Positions 7,299 to 21,799 of a DNA stretch of 64,000 nucleotides are shown piece by piece (the first letter of the stretch is position 1; the number at the start of each line of letters is the position of its first letter). The stretch spans positions 124,001 to 188,000 of the forward strand of contig NZ_JASFYE010000002.1 of the NCBI RefSeq assembly GCF_030055425.1. The letters run 5' to 3'. The notes beneath the pieces are model-generated. The model had not been told where the DNA came from and did not search any database. It was given only the letters and a program-made list of their open reading frames with translations. A program made the position numbers and the translations under genes. This stretch comes from Methanothermobacter sp. (GTDB lineage: Archaea > Methanobacteriota > Methanobacteria > Methanobacteriales > Methanothermobacteraceae).

Positions 7299-7357
7299 TT
7301 GCTGGCATGGAAAAATATTAATAGTTGATTGCCCAATCTTTTTATTGGTTTCATTTT

Positions 7358-7429
7358 GCCCTGATAGTGTAGCGGATATCACGTAGGACTGCGGATCCTA
7401 TTACCCGGGTTCAAGTCCCGGTCAGGGCA
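7358..7429 (+). tRNA. tRNA-Arg, anticodon GCG
   Basis: A full cloverleaf can be drawn: acceptor GCCCTGA (7358-7364) pairs with TCAGGGC, the anticodon stem TAGGA/TCCTA encloses loop CTGCGGA (anticodon GCG, reads CGC), and the T arm is CCGGG-TTCAAGT-CCCGG. The discriminator base is A and no CCA is encoded (the next base is T). T33 and the D-arm GTG/CAC pairs are present. It marks the left edge of the AT-rich island. Downstream T-runs near 7465-7495 could end its transcript. Confidence 0.95.
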
Positions 7430-7690
7430 TCTACTCAGTAAACTTTCATGAGATAGGTTTTAGTCATGGCTTTGGTTTTTTATAATATATTTTTTCTATA
7501 ACCTCTCTTTTATACTTGAAAAAGCCACTATTTTGATGATCCTAGGTCATCGCTTATTAGGCTCATTAAATACAGTAAAATTAATACTTACAACTCTAAT
7601 TAATGAATAAAAATATTACTAAAAATTAAATAGTAAATATTATATTATTCTTAGAATAATTAATATTATAGCTTAAAAGGAGGTTGAAGG
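7430..7690. other. AT-rich leader region of the island, no clear gene
   Basis: About 260 bases with very high A+T and many stops in all frames. I see T-runs after the tRNA, a near-palindrome around CCTAGG (7535-7551, GATGA...TCATC arms), a perfect 17-bp palindrome (7644-7660) and an AAAAGGAGGT ribosome-binding site (7675-7684). It most likely holds the tRNA terminator and the island promoter. No repeat of the tRNA 3' end was seen. Confidence 0.6.
7644..7660. promoter_or_regulatory. Perfect palindrome upstream of the radical SAM operon, candidate operator
   Basis: ATTATTCT-T-AGAATAAT: 8-bp arms with one central base, inside an A/T-rich block that could also hold the TATA box, and about 18 bases before the AAAGGAGGT site. 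Size and symmetry fit a dimeric repressor site such as those of metal regulators (DtxR/Fur-like), but no regulator gene lies beside it. At this base composition, chance palindromes are possible. Confidence 0.4.
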
Positions 7691-7738
7691 ATGGACTATG
7701 AAGAATTTTTGGAAATGGGATGTTTCCATAACCATTGA
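7691..7738 (+). CDS. Possible 15-codon leader peptide
   Basis: ATG 7691 opens MDYEEFLEMGCFHNH and stops at 7738. Its ribosome-binding site AGGAGGT (7678-7684, 6-base spacing) is the best in the island. It overlaps a 34-codon ORF in another frame (7698-7802). It could be a translated leader, a peptide substrate for the radical SAM enzymes downstream, or noise. Cys, His and Asn near the C-terminus would be reasonable targets for modification, but this is speculation. Confidence 0.3.
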   Translation: MDYEEFLEMGCFHNH

Positions 7739-7802
7739 GATAGTTATTTGTTTATTTATTTTTGAAGAATTGGAATTATTAATTGGGTATTGGGGGCTAT
7801 AA
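7698..7802 (+). CDS. 34-residue ORF abutting the first radical SAM gene
   Basis: This ORF starts at ATG 7698 (MKNFWKWDVSITIEIVICLF...) and its TAA ends at 7802, directly before the ATG of the radical SAM gene at 7803. The product is aromatic and hydrophobic, has one Cys (residue 18), an acidic patch EELE and ends GYWGL. GAAGGA at 7686-7691 may serve as ribosome-binding site. The exact junction and the shared strand suggest a real gene coupled to the enzyme: a small membrane peptide or a modified-peptide precursor. No known precursor family is recognised. Confidence 0.4.
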   Translation: MKNFWKWDVSITIEIVICLFIFEELELLIGYWGL

Positions 7803-8786
7803 ATGGAATATATCCCCTTTCTATTGGTATTTCACATAACTGGGCACTGCAATTTGAAGTGTTGTTATTGTTATGCAAATCGATATAAACGGGAACATGT
7901 TGACTTTGATGCTATAAAGGATGTTTTAAGACAATCAAAGGAATTAGGTTCAAGACATGTTATATTTAGTGGAGGGGAACCACTAATTCACCCAGAATTT
8001 CATGAGATATTAGAATATGCCAGTGAACTCCAACTTGGCATTCACATAACGTCTAATGGCACTCTCCTTGATAATGAAACTACAGTGAAATTAAAATCGG
8101 TGGATGCTAAAGTCACGATAAGTCTTGATGGGGCTTTTCCAGAAATAAATGACCCATTACGGGGGCCCGGGACATTCAAAATGGCTGTAAGTGCAATAGA
8201 AAATCTTGTAGACAACGGTGTTTATACTTCGATGAGAATGACTCTGCTTAAAAGTAATTTATTCAATGTACGTGATTATATTGAACTTGCTATAGAAAAA
8301 GGGGTAAATCGCTGCATAATTGAACGCATGACATTATCAAACTATAATAAAAGAGAATTAGCAAACCTAGAAATCACAAAAGAGGACCTTTTTCATACCT
8401 TTAAAATACTTTACGACTATAAGGACCTTAAATGTCTCAGAATAGGATCTAATGATCCACTCTGGCTTATTTTTTGTCGGAAAAACTATATTGATAAAGA
8501 CAATATATGTGGAGGATGTACTGCAGGTGTAGCTGCTGTTTCTATTAACCCTGATTTAACAGTATCCCCTTGTCCTAGATTAGATATCATTTGTGGCAGT
8601 TTAAAGGACCATTCTTTAAAATCTCTCTGGAAAAAATCGGAGGTTTTTAGGAATTTACGTAATAGGAATCTTTTTGAAGGATGTAATTCGTGTCAATTTA
8701 AAAATCTTTGTGGTGGTTGCAGAGGAGCCGCTCATGCCCATGGATTCTATTTAGGAAGAGATCCTCAGTGCTGGAGGCTAGAATAA
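7803..8786 (+). CDS. Radical SAM/SPASM domain enzyme 1
   Basis: A 327-residue radical SAM enzyme. The SAM-binding cluster motif CxxxCxxC is C16-C20-C23, followed by FSGGEPLIHPEF (SAM-binding GGE) and HITSNGTLL. The C-terminal ~90 residues hold a SPASM-type set of cysteines (CGGCTAG, SPCPRL, CNSCQFKNLCGGC, PQCW) for auxiliary [4Fe-4S] clusters. Such enzymes modify peptides (PqqE, anSME types) or tetrapyrroles (AhbC/AhbD types). Substrate unknown. First large gene of the AT-rich operon; the next gene overlaps its stop by one base (TAATG). Confidence 0.85.
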   Translation: MEYIPFLLVFHITGHCNLKCCYCYANRYKREHVDFDAIKDVLRQSKELGSRHVIFSGGEPLIHPEFHEILEYASELQLGIHITSNGTLLDNETTVKLKSVDAKVTISLDGAFPEINDPLRGPGTFKMAVSAIENLVDNGVYTSMRMTLLKSNLFNVRDYIELAIEKGVNRCIIERMTLSNYNKRELANLEITKEDLFHTFKILYDYKDLKCLRIGSNDPLWLIFCRKNYIDKDNICGGCTAGVAAVSINPDLTVSPCPRLDIICGSLKDHSLKSLWKKSEVFRNLRNRNLFEGCNSCQFKNLCGGCRGAAHAHGFYLGRDPQCWRLE

Positions 8787-9742
8787 TGAACTGCGTACTT
8801 ATGGTTACTAAATCGTGTAATATAACTTGTAAATACTGTTATATGGATTCAAAAAGTATAGATTCCAAAATTGAACCACTTAAACCCATAATGGATATAA
8901 TAGAATTATTAGAAACCATAAAACTCGAAAAATTGGTATTGGGAGGCGGAGAACCTTTTTTAAGAAAAGATATATTCAAAATACTTGAAGATAGTGTAAA
9001 GAGGTTTTGCACCAGTATTTTAACAAATGGAACCATGATTAATAAAAAAATTGTGGAAAAACTGAAATATACAGGAATTGATTGTATAAGCATTAGTTTA
9101 GATTCACCACACCCTACAATCCATAACCAATTTAGAGATAATTCCTTTTCTGATGCTCTAGAATCCATTAAAAGCTGCATAAAACATGGAATAGATGTTG
9201 ATATGGGGGTTTGTGTACATAAAAAAAATTTTGAATATTCAATAGAGCTCATTAAAATGGCTGAAGATCTTGGTCTCTCATCAATTACCTTTGAAGGACT
9301 TAATCTTATAGGAAGAGCTGAAGACCGCAAATATCTGCAACTTGAAGCGCAAGAAACAGATCATTTTTTAGAGAAAGTATACGAATATTTAAAAGATGAA
9401 AAACCGGATATCAATGTTATAATGTTTTATCCCCAATGGGTTAGATGGGACAGTAATGCTAAGGGATGTGAAGCTGCAAAAAGCTTTTTTGGCATCTTAC
9501 CTAACGGAGAAATGGTACCATGCACCAATATACCTATTTCATTGGGCAATGTACTCAATAAAGATTTTGAAGTTCTATGGAATAGTGAAATTATGAATAA
9601 GATCCGGAATTACAGAAGGGGAGGTTGTAAAATATGCAAATATAAAGATAAATGTGGTGGTTGCCGAAGCAGAGCCTATTGTACAGGTGATTTACTTGGA
9701 AGCGACCCTCTATGTACATTATCTCATGAGAAGGTGATTTAG
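8786..9742 (+). CDS. Radical SAM/SPASM domain enzyme 2
   Basis: A 318-residue paralogue of the previous enzyme. I start it at ATG 8786, which overlaps the preceding stop, because GGAGG at 8773-8777 is well placed and the protein then begins MNCVLMVTKSCNITCKYC (cluster Cys 11, 15, 18). LGGGEPFLRKDI binds SAM. The C-terminal cysteines (KGCEAAKSFFGILPNGEMVPC, GCKICKYKDKCGGC, DPLC) are a SPASM-type set. Twin SPASM enzymes in one operon suggest two steps on one substrate. A longer in-frame ORF from 8708 lies inside the first enzyme and is not supported. Confidence 0.85.
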   Translation: MNCVLMVTKSCNITCKYCYMDSKSIDSKIEPLKPIMDIIELLETIKLEKLVLGGGEPFLRKDIFKILEDSVKRFCTSILTNGTMINKKIVEKLKYTGIDCISISLDSPHPTIHNQFRDNSFSDALESIKSCIKHGIDVDMGVCVHKKNFEYSIELIKMAEDLGLSSITFEGLNLIGRAEDRKYLQLEAQETDHFLEKVYEYLKDEKPDINVIMFYPQWVRWDSNAKGCEAAKSFFGILPNGEMVPCTNIPISLGNVLNKDFEVLWNSEIMNKIRNYRRGGCKICKYKDKCGGCRSRAYCTGDLLGSDPLCTLSHEKVI

Positions 9743-10596
9743 TGTCAAATAAAAGACGTATTATCAGGGAATTAATTACCCTTCCTAGACCACAACTTTT
9801 TCCTATCCCAGCCAGTGCGGGGATGTGTGGGCTGGCTTTATCTTCATCCAGTATTAATTTTCATGAAATATCAAATGCAATAATAATACCTATTTTAATT
9901 TGGTGTGGTGGCCAGGTGTTAAATGACCTTTTTGATTCAGAGTTTGACAAAATATACCATCCTGAGTGGCCTATTCCATCAGGGTTGATAAATAAAAATC
10001 TGGCTTTTGTTTATGCAATGATCTTTTATATGGCCGGGTTTTTAGTTGCATTCTACATAAACATTTATTGTTTAATAACAACAGCTGTTGCGGCTTTTTT
10101 TGCTACAGTATACAATCAATTAAAGAGAAGAGGCATTTATGGGAATATTTGTTTTGGTTTGGCTGTGGCTTCATGCGTGTTAATTGGAACAGCTATAAAT
10201 AAGGCCATATCCATGTTAATTTTACTTGTTATATTTATATCAAGCTTGGTTCATATGAGTGATAATATACTTGGGACTTTTCCTGACATTGAAGCAGATA
10301 AAAAGATTGGTTTTCAAACATTACCTATACAAATAGGACCCGAATACTCGGCCATCATTAGTTTTGTACTTTTTTCACTGGCAAGTTTACTTACTCTGTT
10401 ATTATGGAGAGTGGGCTTGAGTATTTTCTATTTGCCTTTGGCTACTGTGGCTATAGTCTCTATATTATGGACTTCTTTTCTTGTTTTAAAGGATCCTATG
10501 AAATTCTGTAGACTAGAAGGGTTCTGGATTGTATATTCATTATTCATGGGTGAAATATTGCTTTATACATCTTTGATAGTAGGTTCCTGTATCTAA
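9742..10596 (+). CDS. UbiA-family prenyltransferase
   Basis: A 284-residue membrane prenyltransferase with about eight hydrophobic segments. First diphosphate/Mg2+ motif: NDLFDSEFDKIYHPEWPIPSG (the NDxxDxxxD type); second: DIEADKKIGFQTLPIQIG (DxxxDxxxG-TLP type). It would move an isoprenoid chain onto an aromatic ring, tetrapyrrole, glycerol lipid or other acceptor. GTG 9742 overlaps the previous stop (TAGTG) with AAGGTGAT upstream. The usual archaeal lipid enzyme is of this family, but the operon context with two radical SAM enzymes points to a special acceptor. Confidence 0.85.
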   Translation: MSNKRRIIRELITLPRPQLFPIPASAGMCGLALSSSSINFHEISNAIIIPILIWCGGQVLNDLFDSEFDKIYHPEWPIPSGLINKNLAFVYAMIFYMAGFLVAFYINIYCLITTAVAAFFATVYNQLKRRGIYGNICFGLAVASCVLIGTAINKAISMLILLVIFISSLVHMSDNILGTFPDIEADKKIGFQTLPIQIGPEYSAIISFVLFSLASLLTLLLWRVGLSIFYLPLATVAIVSILWTSFLVLKDPMKFCRLEGFWIVYSLFMGEILLYTSLIVGSCI

Positions 10597-10613
10597 TGTC
10601 AAGAGGTGGAAGA

Positions 10614-11153
10614 ATGTCTGAAAAATATCGAAGCTTTCACTTTACCAATAGGGAAATTGCTATGCTGGCAGCATTCTCGGTTCTACTGCTATCTGTAGAT
10701 CTTATCTGGATTTTAGGTCCTATTCTGGGAAATATAATCTATGGAATTATTGATGGGATTATACTGATCACGGCAGCCATTGTTATTGGTAGGAGGTACA
10801 CTGTCTTAAACCTTGGAATAATTCGGACTATCGTCGAAATATTTATAGCAGGCGCTTTTGTGGGGACCCTCACGGCATTTGATTATCTGGTCAGTGCGCT
10901 AGTACTTGAGACGATTTTACAGTTTTCAACACCATATGCAGCAAATTTAAGAATCAATGTCCTTGGCATGACACTGTATGGTTTGGTAACAAGGTTGATG
11001 TTCATAACAATAAGTGTTTTTATTTATGGCATGATTTTACCCCTCTGGCTCATGTTATTCATGATTATTGTGCCTGTCATAACCTATGCAATAGGAGGAT
11101 TTATAGGCCACGGTGTAGGCAACAGAGTTAAGAATACTGTGACAGCAATATAA
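10614..11153 (+). CDS. ECF transporter S component-like membrane protein
   Basis: A 179-residue integral membrane protein with about five or six helices. FTNREIAMLAAFSVLLLS at the N-terminus is the usual S-component opening. It is followed at once by T- and A-component genes, so it is probably the substrate-binding subunit of this ECF importer. Substrate unknown; it does not look like BioY, ThiT or CbiM to me. ATG 10614 has AGAGGTGG upstream; an in-frame ATG at 10596 overlaps the UbiA stop and would add six residues. Confidence 0.7.
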   Translation: MSEKYRSFHFTNREIAMLAAFSVLLLSVDLIWILGPILGNIIYGIIDGIILITAAIVIGRRYTVLNLGIIRTIVEIFIAGAFVGTLTAFDYLVSALVLETILQFSTPYAANLRINVLGMTLYGLVTRLMFITISVFIYGMILPLWLMLFMIIVPVITYAIGGFIGHGVGNRVKNTVTAI

Positions 11154-11206
11154 AGTTCAATTTCAGACCTGAAAATTCAATTAAATCAGAAAAATAGGGT
11201 TATTCA

Positions 11207-11992
11207 ATGATTGAGTATATAAACTCAGATTCAATAATCCACAAATTGAATCCCTTTACAAAATTTTTATTCTCCCTCATAGTTTTAACTGCGAGCATAA
11301 TAACATCTTCCGTATGGATTCTGGCATCTTTAATAACGGTTTCTATAATTTGCTGGTTAACCGCAAGGATTCCCCTTAAAAATTTTAAAGTATTACTCAT
11401 TGTCATAGTTGCAATGATTGTAATCGGTACTTTAACTCAATCTCTATTCTTTACAGAGAAACCCGGATACACTGGAACCAAAACAGTTCTTTTTAATATA
11501 ATTCCATATGATCTGCCAGTAATAGGTGCTCTACCCATCACACTTGAAGGACTAAAGTATGGAATTATCTTTTCCATGAGAATGACAGCAATAGTAATTT
11601 CGTCACTCCTACTTCCTATCACGACACACCCAACTGAAATAATACTAATGTTAAAAAGGATGAAATTTCCAGAGTGGTTGATTCTGGTTATTACAATGTC
11701 CATCCGTTTTTTACCCATGAGCATCCAAAACTTCAACACCATGAGAAATGCTCAGCGACTTAGAAAGGGTAGGCTTGAATTGAAGGATCTTCTTTTGCTT
11801 TTGGAGTCTCTCATCATAATATCAGTTTTAACAGCAAAGAAGATGGCACTTTCACTGGAAATTAAAGCATTTGGACACAGCAAAAAAAGGACCTCCTTTA
11901 AGACCCTTCAATTCCGTTTCCGGGATTTAATATTCACCTTGTTTTCAATCACGATTCTTTTTATAGCGCTACTCGACAGGTGGTGGTCCTGA
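11207..11992 (+). CDS. ECF transporter transmembrane (T) component, EcfT/CbiQ family
   Basis: A 261-residue EcfT-type protein. The N-terminal INSDSIIHKLNPFTKFLFSL is the standard entry of CbiQ/EcfT proteins (D-x-x-H-x-L-x-P-x-x-K), followed by four or five membrane helices. The coupling-helix region has AQRLRKGRLELKDLL (the Ala-Arg-Gly-type motif that docks on the ATPases, here AQRLRKG). It links the S component to the ATPase. The next gene starts one base after the stop. Confidence 0.88.
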   Translation: MIEYINSDSIIHKLNPFTKFLFSLIVLTASIITSSVWILASLITVSIICWLTARIPLKNFKVLLIVIVAMIVIGTLTQSLFFTEKPGYTGTKTVLFNIIPYDLPVIGALPITLEGLKYGIIFSMRMTAIVISSLLLPITTHPTEIILMLKRMKFPEWLILVITMSIRFLPMSIQNFNTMRNAQRLRKGRLELKDLLLLLESLIIISVLTAKKMALSLEIKAFGHSKKRTSFKTLQFRFRDLIFTLFSITILFIALLDRWWS

Positions 11993-11993
11993 A

Positions 11994-13631
11994 ATGGACG
12001 CAATCCAAATAAAAAATTTTTCATTTCGTTACGCAGGTTCAGATAAACCCGCACTTCGGAGAATAAACTTTACAGTAAAAAAAGGGGAATTTGTTGGAAT
12101 CACGGGAAAATCAGGCTGTGGAAAATCTACTCTCCTTTATGCTTTAAGAGGGATAATCCCCCATGCAGTTAAAGGTGAAAGGCGGGGTTCAGTCAGAGTC
12201 TGGGGACTCGATACAGAGGAAAATGGAATAGAAACACTCACATCTCATGTGGGTATGGTGTTCCAGAATCCAGAACTTCAGATTTTTAGTGTAACCGTTG
12301 AGGATGAAGTTGCCTTTGTAGCTGAGAACTTAGGTTATTCCCCTGACAAAATAGAGGAATGTGTAGATTTTGCACTAAACGCTGTGGATATAGCCGAAAT
12401 CAGATATCGTTACCCTCATGATTTATCTGGCGGAGAAAAACAGAAGCTGGCCATAGCATCTGTCTTATCAGTTAAACCTGAAATCCTATTATTGGATGAG
12501 CCAACATCGGAACTTGATGCAAAGGGAAGACACATGGTTCTTGAAACCCTAAGAAAATTGAATTCTAAAGGCATGACTGTAATAATTGCGGAACATAACC
12601 TTGATGAGGTAGCCCCCCTTATGGACAGGTTGATTATTCTGGATGAAGGCCGAGTCAGAGTTTCTGGAAAGCCAGAGAATGTATTCAGATCTAAAAAATT
12701 TTTTGAACTAAAATTAAGAGCTCCCCAAGTTGTTGAGGTCGGTATGAAGCTTAGAGAGCAGAAAGTTCCTCTATCGATATATGATGCTACGGAGTGTCTG
12801 AAAAATAAACTCCATGATATCCAGGTTCAGAGATATGATTGTCAGACTCCTCGGGGAAAACCGGTAATTGAGGTGAGGAATCTCTTCTTCCAGAAGGATG
12901 GTAGGAAAATTCTAGATAATATCAATATGCATATCAATAGGGGAGAGGTTGTAGGGCTAATCGGTCCGAATGGTTCAGGAAAAACAACCCTCGCAATGAT
13001 GCTAACGGGCATTTTAAGACCTTCGAAAGGAAAAATTAGGATTCTAGACGAATTTGTAGATGGAAACCCACGAAAAGTTCATGGAAAAATTGGGTTTCTT
13101 TTTCAGAACCCAGAACATCAAATTTTCTGCAGTTCTGTAAAATCTGAGGTTAAATATGGAGCTGAAAATAGGGGGGATCTGGTTTCTGCCCTGCTAAAAA
13201 AGATGGATCTTGAGAAGTTTGAGGATAAACATCCACTAACCCTTAGTAGGGGGGAGTTGCAGAGAGTAGCAACTGCCACAGTACTTTCAATGGATCCTGA
13301 AATACTTATTATAGATGAACCAACGACTGGGCAGGACTGGGATCATGTAAAGGGGTTCATGGATTTTCTCATGGGCCTGAGAACGAAAGGAAAGACGATT
13401 CTCCTCATTACACATGATATGAGAGTAGCTGCAGAGTACTGCCAGAGGCTGCTTGTAATGAAAAAGGGGAAGATAGTGATGGATTCATACACACGGAATG
13501 TCTTTGCAAATGTGGAATTCCTTAAGGAAGCCGACCTGAAACCTCCACCTATTTCCGAGATAAGTCGGATGGCAGGTATAAATCCGCCTCTTCTCAGGGT
13601 GCATGAGATCAGATTAAAGAAATGTGGGTGA
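11994..13631 (+). CDS. ECF transporter ATPase, two ABC domains fused (EcfA1A2-type)
   Basis: A 545-residue protein with two ABC ATPase domains. Domain 1: Walker A GKSGCGKST (residues 38-46), Q-loop VFQNPELQIF, signature LSGGEKQK, Walker B ILLLDEPTSELD, switch His in IIAEHNLDEV. Domain 2 (from about residue 295): Walker A GPNGSGKTT, Q-loop LFQNPEHQIF, signature LSRGELQR, Walker B ILIIDEPTTGQD, THDMR. Each EcfA usually comes as a separate gene; this fused form supplies both sites. The Gly-to-Arg change in the second signature may weaken one ATP site. Confidence 0.92.
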   Translation: MDAIQIKNFSFRYAGSDKPALRRINFTVKKGEFVGITGKSGCGKSTLLYALRGIIPHAVKGERRGSVRVWGLDTEENGIETLTSHVGMVFQNPELQIFSVTVEDEVAFVAENLGYSPDKIEECVDFALNAVDIAEIRYRYPHDLSGGEKQKLAIASVLSVKPEILLLDEPTSELDAKGRHMVLETLRKLNSKGMTVIIAEHNLDEVAPLMDRLIILDEGRVRVSGKPENVFRSKKFFELKLRAPQVVEVGMKLREQKVPLSIYDATECLKNKLHDIQVQRYDCQTPRGKPVIEVRNLFFQKDGRKILDNINMHINRGEVVGLIGPNGSGKTTLAMMLTGILRPSKGKIRILDEFVDGNPRKVHGKIGFLFQNPEHQIFCSSVKSEVKYGAENRGDLVSALLKKMDLEKFEDKHPLTLSRGELQRVATATVLSMDPEILIIDEPTTGQDWDHVKGFMDFLMGLRTKGKTILLITHDMRVAAEYCQRLLVMKKGKIVMDSYTRNVFANVEFLKEADLKPPPISEISRMAGINPPLLRVHEIRLKKCG

Positions 13632-13641
13632 GGGATAGGAG

Positions 13642-15372
13642 GTGCTGGGGCTCATTAAACTGGCTGGAAAAAGGAGAGTTAAACTTTTCATAGCATGTTC
13701 ATTGCATGTAATCGCTTCTGCTCTGGCAGTAGTCCCATTCCTTGTGATATACCTTATTTTCATTGAGATATTCAGTGGATCCTGCAACCATCGGAGGGTA
13801 TGGATGCTAATGGCTTTAATACCAATTATCTACTTGGCAATGTCAGCTATCCTTGTATCTGCATACAATGTATCACATGCTGCAGCATATGAAATCCTTG
13901 CAGACACCAGAATTGATCTGGGAAGGAAATTTTTCAATTTGCCAATGGGATATTTCAATGATAAGAATACTGGTGAACTGGAAACAGTAATGAATGAGAA
14001 TGTAGAAATTCTTGAGCTTTTTTTAGCCCACCACCTTCCAGAGATGATAAGTACAGTATTTGTACCTTTATCCCTTGCATTGATACTCTTCTTAATGGAT
14101 TGGAGGATGGCAATGGCTTCTATACTACCAGTGACCCTTGCAATGGCTGTGATCATGACAAAAGATCAGAAATGGAAAGATATGATCGACGCGTATCTTA
14201 GGGCTCAGGCAGAAATTAATTCAACAATTTTGGAATACGTAGAGGGTATTAAGGTGATTAAGGCCTTCAATCAAACACCCAATTCATTCAGGCGCTATCT
14301 AAACACCATGGCTTGCTGGAGGGAAAGTATGATTGAATGGTCAAGAGAAAGGGCCCTTCCCTTCACGATTTACCAGGCTCTGATAACATCCACCCCAATA
14401 TTTATAATTCCGGCGGGTCTTTTGCTATATAACCTAGAAATTATTTCTAAGGATACATTTTTAATGTTTCTCATACTCGGTCCAGTTTTAGGAAGCCTCT
14501 TTATGCGCATATATGACTTTTTAAGGTACGGTGTTGAGGAAAAGGAATGCGTAAATAGGATCAGGAAGGTGTTAAATGCAGATGAGATGATTGATAATGG
14601 AAATGAAAATGTTGAATACTTTGATATAACATTCAGGAATGTTTATTTTGCCTATGAAACCGGAAATGCTGTGCTGAAGGGTATAAGCTTTCATGTACCG
14701 AACGGAACAAGATGTGCCATCGTTGGACCTTCTGGGGCGGGTAAAACCACGATAGCAAGGTTGATATGTAGATTCTGGGATGTCGACGATGGTGAGATTC
14801 TCGTTGGAGGATGCGACATAAAGGATATGTCAGTAAAGGATCTTCTATCACATGTTTCAATGGTTCTACAGGAACCATACCTCTTCAATGATACGATACT
14901 GGAGAATATCAAGATGGGAAATCCTGATGCATCTGTTGATGATGTAATTGTGGCTTCAAAGGTCGCTGGGTGTCATAAATTCATAGAAAAACTTCCTAAT
15001 GGTTATTTAACTTGTGTAGGTGAAAGTGGCGTGAAATTGAGTGGTGGAGAAAAACAGAGAATTTCAATTGCAAGGGCATTTTTAAAGGATGCACCTATCG
15101 TTATAATTGATGAAGCCACGGCATTTCTTGATCCGGAAAACGAGGCGATAATACAGGAAGCTGTAAGTAAGTTAACCTCTAATAAAACTGTCATTGTGAT
15201 AACTCATAAACTTCATACAATACGTGAAGTGGAAAATATACTTGTCATTAAAGAAGGAAAAATAGTTGAAAGGGGACATTTTGATGAATTGATAACTAAA
15301 GACGGTCTTTTCAGGGAAATGTGGCATGATTATATGTCATCGATGAACTGGAGTATTAAAAAGGTGAGATGA
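13642..15372 (+). CDS. ABC transporter half-molecule 1 (exporter fold, IrtA/YbtP-like)
   Basis: A 576-residue half-transporter: a six-helix type IV (exporter-fold) membrane domain (about residues 15-310) and an ATPase domain with Walker A GPSGAGKTT (from 362), signature LSGGEKQR, Walker B IVIIDEATAFLDPENE and TH switch. The DEATA-x-x-DPENE D-loop is like that of siderophore and metallophore half-transporters which, despite the exporter fold, import metal complexes; this is from memory. GTG 13642 has GGGTGAGG 8 bases upstream. It surely pairs with the next gene. Confidence 0.88.
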   Translation: MLGLIKLAGKRRVKLFIACSLHVIASALAVVPFLVIYLIFIEIFSGSCNHRRVWMLMALIPIIYLAMSAILVSAYNVSHAAAYEILADTRIDLGRKFFNLPMGYFNDKNTGELETVMNENVEILELFLAHHLPEMISTVFVPLSLALILFLMDWRMAMASILPVTLAMAVIMTKDQKWKDMIDAYLRAQAEINSTILEYVEGIKVIKAFNQTPNSFRRYLNTMACWRESMIEWSRERALPFTIYQALITSTPIFIIPAGLLLYNLEIISKDTFLMFLILGPVLGSLFMRIYDFLRYGVEEKECVNRIRKVLNADEMIDNGNENVEYFDITFRNVYFAYETGNAVLKGISFHVPNGTRCAIVGPSGAGKTTIARLICRFWDVDDGEILVGGCDIKDMSVKDLLSHVSMVLQEPYLFNDTILENIKMGNPDASVDDVIVASKVAGCHKFIEKLPNGYLTCVGESGVKLSGGEKQRISIARAFLKDAPIVIIDEATAFLDPENEAIIQEAVSKLTSNKTVIVITHKLHTIREVENILVIKEGKIVERGHFDELITKDGLFREMWHDYMSSMNWSIKKVR

Positions 15373-17097
15373 ATGTATAGTAGATTATTTCACCTTGTGG
15401 GAAAAAATAAGAATCAGTTAAAGTTCACACTTATTTTAATGTCAATTTATGGCATTATCAAAACTGCCCCTCTAGCTTTTCTTTATTTAATTATAGTAGA
15501 GTTTTTAAAGCCCGTTCTTAATATTCCAAGGATTTTAACCATATACTTACTTATGGTGGTTAGCTACGTAATCATAAACAGCATTGACCACTATCTGTTT
15601 CTCAGATCAATGCAGCAAGGCCTTAAAATTTCCTATGATCTCAGAATGAAACTTGGAAATAAATTAACAAAAATATCACTGGGGATTTTCACAAAAAAAA
15701 CCACGGGAGAGTTTAATACAACACTTAGCGAATATGTGAGCAGGGTGGAATATTTCATAACATATATGGCACCATACCTAATTACCTCAAAGGCATCATT
15801 TATTTTTATCATAATCATTTTTTTTATTTTGGATTGGAGGATTGCACTGGCTTCCATTTCAGCGATTCCTCTGATTTGGATGGCCTTTAGATATTCTGAT
15901 AAAATTTCTGAAAAGGTCAAAAGGGAACGAGAAAGGTCACTTTTCAGACTGAATTCACGGATAGTTGAATTCATAGAATGCATGCCAGCCATAAAAATTT
16001 TCAATCAGGAATTTTCTAGCCTTAATAAGTTGAGAAAAAGTGTAGAGGATTTTAGGGATAGGAACATAAACACTGTATCGGCTACAGTAATTCCTAATAT
16101 AATCCTCCTTATATCTTCAAGTTTACTGATAGGATTCATCATGCCAGCATCATTATATCTTTATTTCAGGGGGGCACTGAACTCTGAAATCCTCGTATTC
16201 TGTTTAATAGCCGCACCTGCACTCTCAGAGGCTCTCGCACATTATCTTTATGGTTACCTCCACATGAAACATTCAGTTGGTAAAGCAATGAATCACATAA
16301 TCAAACTTTTAGAGATGAAAACCCTTCCAGAATCATGTGAAAGCAGAGAACCTGAAAAATTTGATATCGAATTTGAAAATGTTACCTTTTACTATGAGGA
16401 GAAAAAAATACTCGATAACATCAGTTTCAGAGTTCCTGAGAACAGTATAACGGCACTTGTGGGCCCATCAGGCGCTGGTAAGACAACCATTACAAATCTC
16501 ATCCTCCGATTCTGGGACCCTACCTCAGGTAAGGTGAAGATTGGAGGCTATGATCTGCGGGATATGGATATGGAGACGCTCTTTTCATGTGTTTCCATAG
16601 TCTTTCAAGATGTCATACTTTTCAATAACACCGTTAAGGAGAATATAAGAATTGGAAGGAATGATGCAAGTGATGATGAAGTCATAAAGGCTGCCAAGGC
16701 TGCCAGGTGCCATGAATTTATAATTCAACTCCCCCGGGGATATGATACTGTCATAGGGGAAAAAGGGGCAAGGTTAAGTGGCGGGGAAAGACAGAGGATA
16801 GCGATAGCCAGAGCAATTCTTAAGGATTCACCAATTCTTATTCTGGATGAGGCAACTGTTTATGTGGATCCTGGAAACGAAAAATCGATACAGGAGGCAC
16901 TCGGAGAATTGATCAGGAACCGAACAGTTCTTATGATCGCTCACAGACTTTCCACAATAAGATCAGCAGACCAGATAATAGTCATTAAAGATGGTAAAAT
17001 CGCTGAAAAGGGTAAACATAATGAGTTAATGAAACAAAATGGACTTTATAGGTATTTATGGGAGATCCAGGAATCTGCAGAAGCATGGAAAATTTAA
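15373..17097 (+). CDS. ABC transporter half-molecule 2 (exporter fold, IrtB/YbtQ-like)
   Basis: A 574-residue partner of the preceding half-transporter, same layout: membrane domain to about residue 310, then Walker A GPSGAGKTT (from 364), Q-loop VFQDVILFN, signature LSGGERQR, Walker B ILILDEATVYVD and AHRLST. Both halves keep the catalytic Glu and switch His, so both ATP sites look active. ATG 15373 follows the previous stop directly with AAGGTGAGAT. Last gene of the AT-rich operon. Confidence 0.88.
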   Translation: MYSRLFHLVGKNKNQLKFTLILMSIYGIIKTAPLAFLYLIIVEFLKPVLNIPRILTIYLLMVVSYVIINSIDHYLFLRSMQQGLKISYDLRMKLGNKLTKISLGIFTKKTTGEFNTTLSEYVSRVEYFITYMAPYLITSKASFIFIIIIFFILDWRIALASISAIPLIWMAFRYSDKISEKVKRERERSLFRLNSRIVEFIECMPAIKIFNQEFSSLNKLRKSVEDFRDRNINTVSATVIPNIILLISSSLLIGFIMPASLYLYFRGALNSEILVFCLIAAPALSEALAHYLYGYLHMKHSVGKAMNHIIKLLEMKTLPESCESREPEKFDIEFENVTFYYEEKKILDNISFRVPENSITALVGPSGAGKTTITNLILRFWDPTSGKVKIGGYDLRDMDMETLFSCVSIVFQDVILFNNTVKENIRIGRNDASDDEVIKAAKAARCHEFIIQLPRGYDTVIGEKGARLSGGERQRIAIARAILKDSPILILDEATVYVDPGNEKSIQEALGELIRNRTVLMIAHRLSTIRSADQIIVIKDGKIAEKGKHNELMKQNGLYRYLWEIQESAEAWKI

Positions 17098-17131
17098 AGT
17101 AGTGGAACTTTATGAGACCCCACAGCTACTT
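17097..17131 (+). terminator. Candidate hairpin at the end of the island operon
   Basis: AAGTAG (17097-17102) and CTACTT (17126-17131) can pair, extended by TGG/CCA inside, right after the last ABC gene. Only a short T-rich stretch follows, so termination is uncertain. It coincides with the return to the host base composition. Confidence 0.35.
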
Positions 17132-17168: not shown

Positions 17169-18518
17169 ATGGGGAACTACTTCAACCCTGAAATAGAGAC
17201 AATGGAACGGGGGGACCTGGACGCCCTCGTGGAGGAAAGGATAAGGTATACAGTGAACTATGCCTACGAGAACTCCCCATTCTACAGTAAATGGTTCAGG
17301 AAAAACAAGATCAAACCCTCGGATATAAGGAGCCATGAGGACCTCAGGGAGCTCCCGATAATAACCGGTGAAACAGTCAGGGAAAACCAGCCCCCTGAAA
17401 GGGATGACTTCGAATTCAGATGCGCCCCATGGGAGGATATATACACCATACATGAGACCAGCGGTACCAGTGGAAGGCCTAAGTCCTTCTTCCTAACATG
17501 GGGGGACTGGCAGAGGTACGCCGAGAAGTACGCAAGGTCATTCGTATCCCAGGGATTTGAGAGGGGCGACAGGGTGGTTGTATGTGCCTCCTATGGCATG
17601 AACGTGGGTGCAAATACCATGACCCTCGCAGCGCAGAAGATAGGGATGACCATAATCCCCGAGGGCAAATGCACCTTTCCTGTGAGGATAATAGAGAGCT
17701 ACCGTCCCACGGGCATAGTTGCAAGCATATTCAAACTCCTGAGGCTTGCGAGGCGCATGAAGGAACAGGGCCTTGACCCCCGGGAGTCAAGTATAAGGAG
17801 ACTGGTTGTGGGTGGTGAAAGCTTCGCACCCGAATCAAGGGAGTACGTGGAGGAAATATGGGGCGTGGAAGTCTACAACACCTATGGAAGCACAGAGGGG
17901 ACCATGTGCGGAGAATGCCACATCAAGGAGGGCCTGCATGTCCCTGAGGACCTGGTGCACCTGGACGTTTATGATCCAGCCATGAGGGACTTTGTTGATG
18001 ATGGGGAGTGCGGCAGAATAGTCCTCACAACACTCCTGCCCGTGGGTGAGAAAACAGGGACCCTCCTCCTCAACTATGACACCGAGGACACCACGGTTGT
18101 AATCTCAAGGGATAGGTGCAAATGTGGAAGGACCCATATGAGGATAATGAACCCTGAAAGGGAGGCTGAGACCTTCTGGGTGGCAGGGCACCCGTTCAAC
18201 AGGGTTGATGTTGAGGCTGCAGTTTTCCAGAGGGAGAATATGGATTATCTAACAGGTGAATACGAGGCTTTCCTCTATGGTGACGAGGATGAGGGGCCAA
18301 TAACAATGAGGGTGTCTCTGGAGTGTGAGGACCCTGAAAACTGTGCCTTGGACCTAATAAAGGAGAACTTTATAAAGGCATTCTTCAAATATAAGAGAGA
18401 GCTCTACGAAGCATATACAGAGGGTCTTTTTGAGATACTTTTCAACTTCACAGGGCCAGGGGAACTTGAATTCTACAGGGTCAAGGGAAGACCAAAACGT
18501 ATCGTTGATAGAAGATAA
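17169..18518 (+). CDS. Coenzyme F390 synthetase / phenylacetate-CoA ligase family protein
   Basis: A 449-residue adenylate-forming enzyme of the PaaK-like family. IHETSGTSGRPKSFFLTWGDW is the P-loop (A3-like) motif, VVVGGESFAPESREYVEE and VYNTYGSTEGTMCGECH complete the ATP and substrate site; a Cys pair follows (RDRCKCGRTH). In Methanothermobacter, relatives adenylate the 8-OH of F420 to make F390, a signal of oxygen or redox stress. Several paralogues exist there, so the substrate of this one is not certain. ATG 17169 has GGTGGG upstream. First gene right of the island. Confidence 0.8.
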   Translation: MGNYFNPEIETMERGDLDALVEERIRYTVNYAYENSPFYSKWFRKNKIKPSDIRSHEDLRELPIITGETVRENQPPERDDFEFRCAPWEDIYTIHETSGTSGRPKSFFLTWGDWQRYAEKYARSFVSQGFERGDRVVVCASYGMNVGANTMTLAAQKIGMTIIPEGKCTFPVRIIESYRPTGIVASIFKLLRLARRMKEQGLDPRESSIRRLVVGGESFAPESREYVEEIWGVEVYNTYGSTEGTMCGECHIKEGLHVPEDLVHLDVYDPAMRDFVDDGECGRIVLTTLLPVGEKTGTLLLNYDTEDTTVVISRDRCKCGRTHMRIMNPEREAETFWVAGHPFNRVDVEAAVFQRENMDYLTGEYEAFLYGDEDEGPITMRVSLECEDPENCALDLIKENFIKAFFKYKRELYEAYTEGLFEILFNFTGPGELEFYRVKGRPKRIVDRR

Positions 18519-20708: not shown

Positions 20709-21248
20709 ATGGACAGGAAATACTTCTCAGTTTTTCTTGCAGTGTGGACGGTAGCATTTCTAATTGCAGGGTCGGTGCCCTACCTCAGATTTAAACTCAT
20801 AGCCGGACTTATCATATTCCTCTTTATTTCAGGATTCGCTAAAAGGTCCCCTAAAAAAGAAGCACTTTATATTGCTGCGATACTCTACCCTCCAGCTGAG
20901 CTTGCACTGAAATTTTCAGTGACCCTTATCGACCCTGTAGCAGTTAATATGGCTGAACACTTCATTGCAGGGGCCCTGGCTGCCCTCGCAGCATCCGTGG
21001 TTCTTGAGAGAGCACTTGAGAAGCTGGATGGGTGGGATGAACTTGCATTTACTGTATCAGCAGCGGTTCTCTTCTGTCTCTTATATGAGATCACGGGCTA
21101 TATGGTTTACTATGAGCCATCCGCCATCCTCTACTCTGATACCATGAGGGATCTTTCCATGAACATTGCAGGGGCGGTGATGACAGCATCCATCACCACA
21201 TGGTATGATAGCAGATCAGGGGACCGATGGCGGCACAGGCGGCTCTGA
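20709..21248 (+). CDS. Hypothetical membrane protein, about five helices
   Basis: A 179-residue membrane protein. Hydrophobic segments lie at about 7-22, 28-43, 52-72, 80-97 and 108-130, with a last one near 148-163. Charged residues within the helices (AEHF in the fourth, LYEITGY in the fifth) resemble small membrane hydrolase- or carrier-like proteins, but I recognise no family. Its last ~33 bases overlap the convergent pilin-like gene on the other strand (21216-21455). Confidence 0.6.
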   Translation: MDRKYFSVFLAVWTVAFLIAGSVPYLRFKLIAGLIIFLFISGFAKRSPKKEALYIAAILYPPAELALKFSVTLIDPVAVNMAEHFIAGALAALAASVVLERALEKLDGWDELAFTVSAAVLFCLLYEITGYMVYYEPSAILYSDTMRDLSMNIAGAVMTASITTWYDSRSGDRWRHRRL

Positions 21249-21455
21249 ACTGTTGTTTACAGGTGGAGCACCACCCCCTCCAGTGTCACCGGCATCAGTA
21301 TTATTTCGAACCTCAGCGGTATCCTGTGCAGAGTTCAGGGTGCTTCTCTGGAAGTATGACCTGTAAATCACAAGCGCCAGGATAGCAACCACTATTATGG
21401 CCCCAAATAGCAGGATATATTCTGATGATGACTGTCCTGCTTCATCCTTAATCAA
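21216..21455 (-). CDS. Class III signal peptide (pilin-like) protein 1
   Basis: A 79-residue type IV pilin-like protein. MIKDEAGQSSSEYILLFGAIIVVAIL is the archaeal class III signal: charged leader, G/Q cleavage site, S-x-E-Y-x-L-L, then the helix. The peptidase EppA would cut at Gly-Gln, exposing the helix for filament assembly. The tail is Gly/Pro-rich with NNS and NNT sequons. Downstream paralogue of the next gene, with a shared 51-nt identical stretch. Confidence 0.78.
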   Translation of the reverse strand: MIKDEAGQSSSEYILLFGAIIVVAILALVIYRSYFQRSTLNSAQDTAEVRNNTDAGDTGGGGAPPVNNSSEPPVPPSVP

Positions 21456-21681
21456 TTTAACACCTATATCGTTGGGTTAGGTTCAACAGGAGGAACCACT
21501 GGAGGTTTTATGGGTTTGCCCGGTGGTTCTATGGGTTTTGGTTCGGGAACAGGTTTCGGGGATGTTGAATTATTTGCACTGGCATTTTTAGCGGCATCTG
21601 AGCCATTAATATTTTTTCTGACATCCTGAATATCCTGTGCAGAGTTCAGGGTGCTTCTCTGGAAGTATGACCTGTAAATCA
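21320..21681. repeat. 51-nt exact direct repeat shared by the two pilin-like genes
   Basis: Bases 21320-21370 and 21631-21681 are identical. The segment encodes the end of the pilin helix and the following [16 protein letters not shown]. Flanking sequence differs far more, including at silent sites. That pattern suggests recent duplication with strong selection or gene conversion over this stretch. Confidence 0.85.
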
Positions 21682-21799
21682 GTATCGCCACAATTGAAAT
21701 GACGATCACACCCCCAAAGAGGAGGATGTACTCGGCTGCACCCTGCCCTTCTTCATCAACAACTAATGAGGCAAGACCCGTAACATCACCCCCTGTCAT
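21464..21799 (-). CDS. Class III signal peptide (pilin-like) protein 2
   Basis: A 111-residue paralogue of the preceding protein. The class III motif [25 protein letters not shown] sits after a longer leader (about 18 residues); cleavage is expected between Gly and Gln. After the shared [15 protein letters not shown] comes an Asn/Ser-rich stretch and a Pro/Lys-rich tail ([16 protein letters not shown]...), probably extended or glycosylated. It is upstream in a two-gene pilin operon. A doubled ATATGACAGG lies at its start. Confidence 0.78.

Follow-up and report, generated by a model that had tools for sequence, protein, structure and literature searches.

An apparently acquired gene island in a Methanothermobacter genome resembles a RiPP cluster and may encode a peptide metallophore with its own uptake system

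Where did the AT-rich genes lying between a tRNA-Arg gene and the coenzyme F390 synthetase gene of a Methanothermobacter genome come from, and what do they make? They occupy about 7.4–17.1 kb of the window, the 64,000-nucleotide stretch of contig NZ_JASFYE010000002.1 that we analysed. An earlier note, made from the sequence alone, had described this block as AT-rich, confined to one strand with tight overlaps, devoted to biosynthesis plus transport, and possibly inserted; it had proposed a GC and codon-use profile, a comparison of the tRNA-Arg locus among congeners, and a search for relatives in other archaea. The profile bears out the compositional claim. GC content between 7.0 and 17.0 kb is 0.34–0.41 compared with about 0.50–0.54 on the flanks, and GC3 is 0.25–0.37 in island genes and 0.54–0.61 in host genes, with a small pilin-like gene as the exception (0.49). 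Codon use of the island is unlike that of the host: choice is flipped for Lys, Glu, Tyr, and Leu, TTA accounting for 0.26 of Leu codons in the island versus 0.02 in the host, and AAA for 0.69 versus 0.36 of Lys codons. The gene coordinates (Table 1) agree with the one-strand layout, and a TAATG stop/start overlap can be read at 8783–8787.

The earlier note gave the two flanking genes as neighbours in a Methanothermobacter genome. Indeed, F390 synthetase comes next after tRNA-Arg, only some 130–230 bases on, in each of the seven other genomes of the genus, and the extra ~9.7 kb at this site is confined to the window species among the eight genomes compared. Thus, a true insertion is present, and only in this species. 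Together with the foreign codon use and a relative found elsewhere in one other species of the genus (see below), the empty sites support the view that the island is a horizontally acquired block, as had been suspected. The opposite explanation, that the other species recently lost the block, was dropped, since the two island-bearing species of the genus use different sites, each empty in other congeners, and since the codon use is foreign. The role of the tRNA as an attachment site, also raised in the earlier note, is not supported. As had been noted, the island genes include no integrase (Pfam, NCBIfam), and there is no direct repeat or duplicated tRNA 3′-end at the island ends checked; in addition, no tRNA lies beside the three other loci, except for two tRNA-Gly genes ~3 kb beyond one of them. 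We therefore dropped tRNA-mediated integration. The tRNA is the sole Rfam match, and no RNA element was found in the leader by this search. Elsewhere in the window (21216–21799, minus strand), two adjacent small pilin-like ORFs have a common segment (EYILLFG...) and look like a duplication.

Table 1. Coordinates of features in the window (unprefixed positions) and at loci of related genomes (L numbers). G031 and G035 represent two species from a different genus within the order; G001 is a congener of the window species.
Feature	Position	Strand	Basis
tRNA-Arg (gcg), left flank of insertion	7357..7431	+	ARAGORN, Rfam; kept in 8/8 genomes of genus
Shine-Dalgarno GGAGGT, 6 nt before mini-ORF	7679..7684	+	sequence; similar motifs in relatives
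15-codon ORF, MDYEEFLEMGCFHNH and stop, putative RiPP precursor	7691..7738	+	same place in G031 and G035; frameshifted remnant in G001
Radical SAM/SPASM enzyme 1 (327 aa)	7803..8786	+	Pfam/NCBIfam; orthologues 53–55% identical in G035, G031
Radical SAM/SPASM enzyme 2 (318 aa)	8786..9742	+	Pfam/NCBIfam; orthologues 48–50% identical; start overlaps enzyme 1 stop
UbiA-family prenyltransferase (284 aa)	9742..10596	+	Pfam UbiA 7e-36; NDLFDSEFD and DIEAD motifs
Membrane protein (185 aa), presumed ECF S component	10596..11153	+	position before T and A; weak profile match
ECF T component (CbiQ family, 261 aa)	11207..11992	+	Pfam CbiQ 1.4e-24
ECF A component, two ATPase domains (545 aa)	11994..13631	+	NCBIfam TIGR04520 above cut-off, two stretches
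ABC half-transporter 1 (576 aa), YbtP-like	13642..15372	+	best non-tandem PDB chain YbtP, 348 bits
ABC half-transporter 2 (574 aa), YbtQ/YbtP-like	15373..17097	+	best non-tandem PDB chains YbtQ 316, YbtP 315 bits
Coenzyme F390 synthetase, right flank, outside island	17169..18518	+	TIGR03335, 915 bits; adjoins tRNA-Arg in other seven species
Palindrome TTAATTAGTTATTACTAATTA	L021 about 12280-12320; L022 about 12545-12580	minus	
Maturase-free ECF + ABC-pair modules of G035/G031	L063:8264-15032; L064:8258-14963; L065:3717-9941		

The earlier reading of the genes was right about the block itself but overlooked a 15-codon ORF that follows the tRNA and precedes the first annotated gene (start codon ATG at 7691, stop codon at 7736–7738), at ideal spacing from its GGAGGT and just upstream of two radical-SAM/SPASM genes. 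At the equivalent place in G031 and G035, two species from a different genus within the order, the mini-gene reads MSYEEFLMLGCKHNH followed by a stop, three synonymous codons being the sole differences between these two. The window peptide is identical to that of G031 at 11 of 15 residues, and the highest count among 20,000 random pairs was 7. Of the 151 genomes of the order, 3 contain the coding pattern (0 for a reversed control), and the mini-ORF is present wherever an intact radical-SAM pair was found; the DNA between it and the first maturase gene shows no conservation. The consensus of the precursor is M-x-Y-E-E-F-L-x-x-G-C-x-H-N-H. On these comparisons we take the mini-ORF as a translated, selected peptide, and it is very probably the substrate of the radical-SAM pair. 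Precursor and modifying enzymes stay together in three genomes, with a remnant in a fourth, and since the mini-gene is kept beside the other intact pairs too, the block looks like a RiPP cluster. A pattern scan of ~85,000 genomes returned four matches in unrelated taxa, which we took as chance, all being without an adjacent radical-SAM gene; the scan used one genome per species and omitted near relatives of the window, so that further members of the family may exist. An AT-rich palindrome, TTAATTAGTTATTACTAATTA, lies upstream of the mini-ORF in G031 as well as in G035 and is a possible operator.

Both maturases match PF04055 and PF13186 above cut-off and carry CxxxCxxC and a SPASM domain, and their motif cysteines are invariant among orthologues. 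Profile matches in the PDB are SkfB, CteB, SuiB, anaerobic sulfatase maturase, and PqqE, with SkfB and CteB on top for maturase 1 and PqqE best for maturase 2. Both enzymes score far under the cut-off of every named NCBIfam equivalog listed: the best matches, NirJ2/AhbD (heme), reach 155–170 bits against a cut-off of 500, and for PqqE, MftC, AhbD, and NirJ scores of at most 170 bits compare with cut-offs of 265 to 515. Neither maturase has an N-terminal recognition domain, and neither an obvious recognition domain nor a peptidase is present in the cluster. Maturase 1 was found, at the sensitivity used, in 3 of 396 archaeal genomes, scores falling from 640–704 bits to 221 bits for the next relatives; no mini-ORF comparable to that of the window lies beside eight of these next-best relatives (221 bits and below) that were examined. 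A first scan of genome contigs with the maturase gave nothing, as did viral contigs and phages, and plasmids gave only generic radical-SAM proteins of ~27% identity. Viperin-like defence was dropped, the PADLOC matches being limited to the generic radical-SAM core.

The proposed search for relatives thus led to an intact radical-SAM pair outside the window species in G031 and G035 only. The G035 cluster includes two S genes, a dedicated UbiA, and a class II terpene-cyclase-like (squalene-hopene-cyclase-like) protein with a DSDDTA motif (L029:2685-4238), which is found in no other of the 151 genomes of the order. The G031 cluster also has two S genes, and UbiA is missing from it; the sole UbiA of this genome lies elsewhere and is more distant in sequence. 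In the window, the island protein has the UbiA family score (PF01040, 7e-36) as well as two Asp-rich motifs and is the second UbiA of its genome, besides the housekeeping one. Since G031 and G035 differ in UbiA and cyclase, the precursor, two maturases, ECF module, and ABC pair appear to form the core; prenylation would not be essential, given that G031 has no UbiA at the locus and a single distant one elsewhere, and prenylation and cyclisation look like optional tailoring. We found no UbiA-type prenylation of a RiPP in the literature searched, and no paper describing the cluster. Elsewhere in their genomes, G031 and G035 have S, T, A, and ABC-pair modules of the same design lacking maturases, one S component belonging to the Trep_Strep/MptD family and the others to PF09819. 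In one of these modules (L065) an ABC gene is apparently split over two frames.

ECF transporters are importers of trace nutrients, usually vitamins. An iron-regulated one takes up heme (PMC7299338). In the island, T (CbiQ) and A (ECF ATPase) components are both recognised, and the 185-aa protein before them has the size and position of an S component. It matches nothing in the family libraries; its profile weakly matches the MptD/Trep_Strep S family, a single-sequence structure model was too poor for use (pTM 0.33), and orthologues were found in 4 of 152 genomes of the phylum at the sensitivity used. Compared with half-transporters of known structure, ABC1 scores 348 bits with YbtP, 287 with IrtA, and 241 with Sav1866, and ABC2 scores 316 with YbtQ, 315 with YbtP, and 272 with MsbA. 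On sequence similarity the putative heterodimer is therefore closest to YbtP/YbtQ/IrtA. In the PDB search the largest tandem eukaryotic exporters, whose chains align twice, outscore YbtP and YbtQ, so that import by the ABC pair is suggested and not proven. We consider it likely that the transporters import the product. The 'biosynthesis plus transport' of the earlier note was correct, and the biosynthetic part can now be narrowed to a RiPP-like peptide pathway, the transport part to a probable importer.

A degraded relative provides a further view of the transporters. In G001, a congener of the window species, it sits between thiD and purA (locus L023), unlike the tRNA-Arg site of the window; the thiD–purA site is empty in the window species and in G006, a close sister of G001. 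The S component, too, is absent from G006. In the G001 mini-ORF a frameshift has removed the HNH end, maturase 1 is both frameshifted and internally deleted, no maturase 2 is left, and UbiA is reduced to its last ~23 residues. The S, T, A, and ABC2 genes retain their full length. An extra A occurs in ABC1 within a run of five, which in this single genome of the species may be a homopolymer sequencing error or a true break. Island proteins of the window and G001 are 60–71% identical, compared with 85–90% for most flanking core proteins such as F390 synthetase, which suggests that the two species acquired their islands separately. A short AT-rich stretch just before the broken mini-ORF (L023:8528-8830) contains a 59-aa ORF with no Pfam match and resembles a decayed mobile-element fragment.

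Taken together, our reading of the locus as a RiPP cluster gained by horizontal transfer, which yields a peptide metallophore and includes the means of taking it up, stands at about even chances; that the product is a metallophore is itself slightly less than an even bet. A metallophore is favoured because of the C-terminal Cys and two His, the YbtPQ/IrtAB-like pair, the ECF module, and the uptake-only relative. No metal regulator or metal-linked gene was found in the cluster. In the proposed pathway, translation of the 15-residue precursor is well supported by comparison. The radical-SAM/SPASM pair would then modify it, as gene order, co-occurrence, and family suggest, probably by cross-linking or oxidation of Tyr/Glu/Phe or of the C-terminal Cys/His. 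Optionally, UbiA would attach an isoprenoid, which in one relative the class II terpene cyclase may cyclise. A host protease might release the C-terminal GCxHNH part, whose single thiol and two imidazole groups could chelate a transition metal, a role proposed because of the CxHNH residues and the transporter similarity. Finally, the S component would bind the metal-loaded product, and ECF T/A and the YbtPQ/IrtAB-like pair would import it, a step that both homology and the uptake-only relative support. The G001 pattern, with synthesis broken and S, T, A, and ABC2 intact, is the one expected if uptake is useful without synthesis; transporters retained after, or despite, loss of synthesis fit uptake of a product made by neighbours.

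The same retention would also fit immunity to an antibiotic. The product could be an antimicrobial radical-SAM peptide (sactipeptide- or ranthipeptide-like) that the ABC pair exports; the ECF and ABC genes would then give self-protection, and G001 would be an immune non-producer. Bacteriocin clusters often contain radical-SAM/SPASM enzymes and ABCB-type heterodimers. We regard this as unlikely: the half-transporter ranking places YbtPQ/IrtAB over MsbA and Sav1866, ECF modules are importers, and neither ABC protein has a peptidase domain (Pfam, NCBIfam). Quite unlikely, too, is a peptide-derived redox cofactor of the PQQ/mycofactocin kind, made membrane-soluble through UbiA and salvaged by the ECF module like a vitamin. 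PqqE and MftC are among the NCBIfam and PDB matches, Tyr-Glu-Glu is kept in the precursor, and vitamins are the usual ECF cargo; however, the cluster has no partner dehydrogenase, only 3–4 of about 151 genomes of the order have it, the conserved Cys/His end would be left unexplained, and G031 lacks UbiA at the locus. The substrate of the enzymes could also be a small molecule, for example a tetrapyrrole, the mini-ORF being only a regulatory leader peptide. This, too, is quite unlikely: NirJ2/AhbD matches of both enzymes, matches of UbiA to chlorophyll and heme o synthases, and the existence of an ECF heme importer (PMC7299338) speak for it, but the NirJ2/AhbD scores are far under the equivalog cut-off and a leader peptide needs no retention of 11 of 15 residues and a C-terminal GCxHNH. 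Its tetrapyrrole form is further weakened, and heme/tetrapyrrole biosynthesis was dropped, because siroheme decarboxylase AhbA/B (PF17805) is missing from all four genomes, while a control search finds PF17805 in Methanosarcina.

The proposed metallophore cluster shares traits with several known systems. As in PQQ and mycofactocin biosynthesis (PqqA/PqqE, MftA/MftC), a very short ribosomal precursor adjoins a radical-SAM/SPASM enzyme, but the island has two maturases, both under the family cut-offs, no PqqD-like chaperone, a 15-residue precursor ending in GCxHNH, and UbiA and import genes. SkfB and CteB (sactipeptide/ranthipeptide) have the same peptide-modifying radical-SAM/SPASM fold; unlike them, the island maturases are archaeal and without the N-terminal recognition domain, and the precursor has one Cys. 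Among RiPP metallophores, methanobactin is made with MNIO enzymes. The thiooxazole metallophores are made with them as well (PMC13097082). These and noursin (PMC10206099) resemble the island in being ribosomal peptides with proposed metal binding via side chains, whereas the island uses two radical-SAM enzymes and predicted uptake via ECF and a YbtPQ-like pair. The siderophore importers YbtPQ and IrtAB are likewise ABC half-transporter pairs with an exporter-type fold, but the island pair is coupled to an ECF S/T/A module. The ECF heme transporter LhaSTA (PMC7299338) also combines S, T, and A modules to take up a trace nutrient; in contrast, the presumed island S is in an unrecognised family, and an extra ABC pair and biosynthesis genes share the operon.

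More tentatively, the cluster may represent an undescribed archaeal RiPP class with a 15-residue precursor and two stand-alone maturases, whose products, in some species prenylated by the membrane UbiA enzyme and cyclised by a class II terpene cyclase, would be lipidated metallophores imported by ECF and YbtPQ-like transporters, with uptake-only cheaters. To our knowledge, no such metallophore has been described from an archaeon. The system is small, and a 15-mer substrate is easily synthesised, making both maturases directly testable; the uptake-only relative is a natural control for transport direction and for public-goods cheating in methanogens. If the proposal is true, methanogens would produce and share a ribosomal peptide altered by both radical and isoprenoid chemistry.
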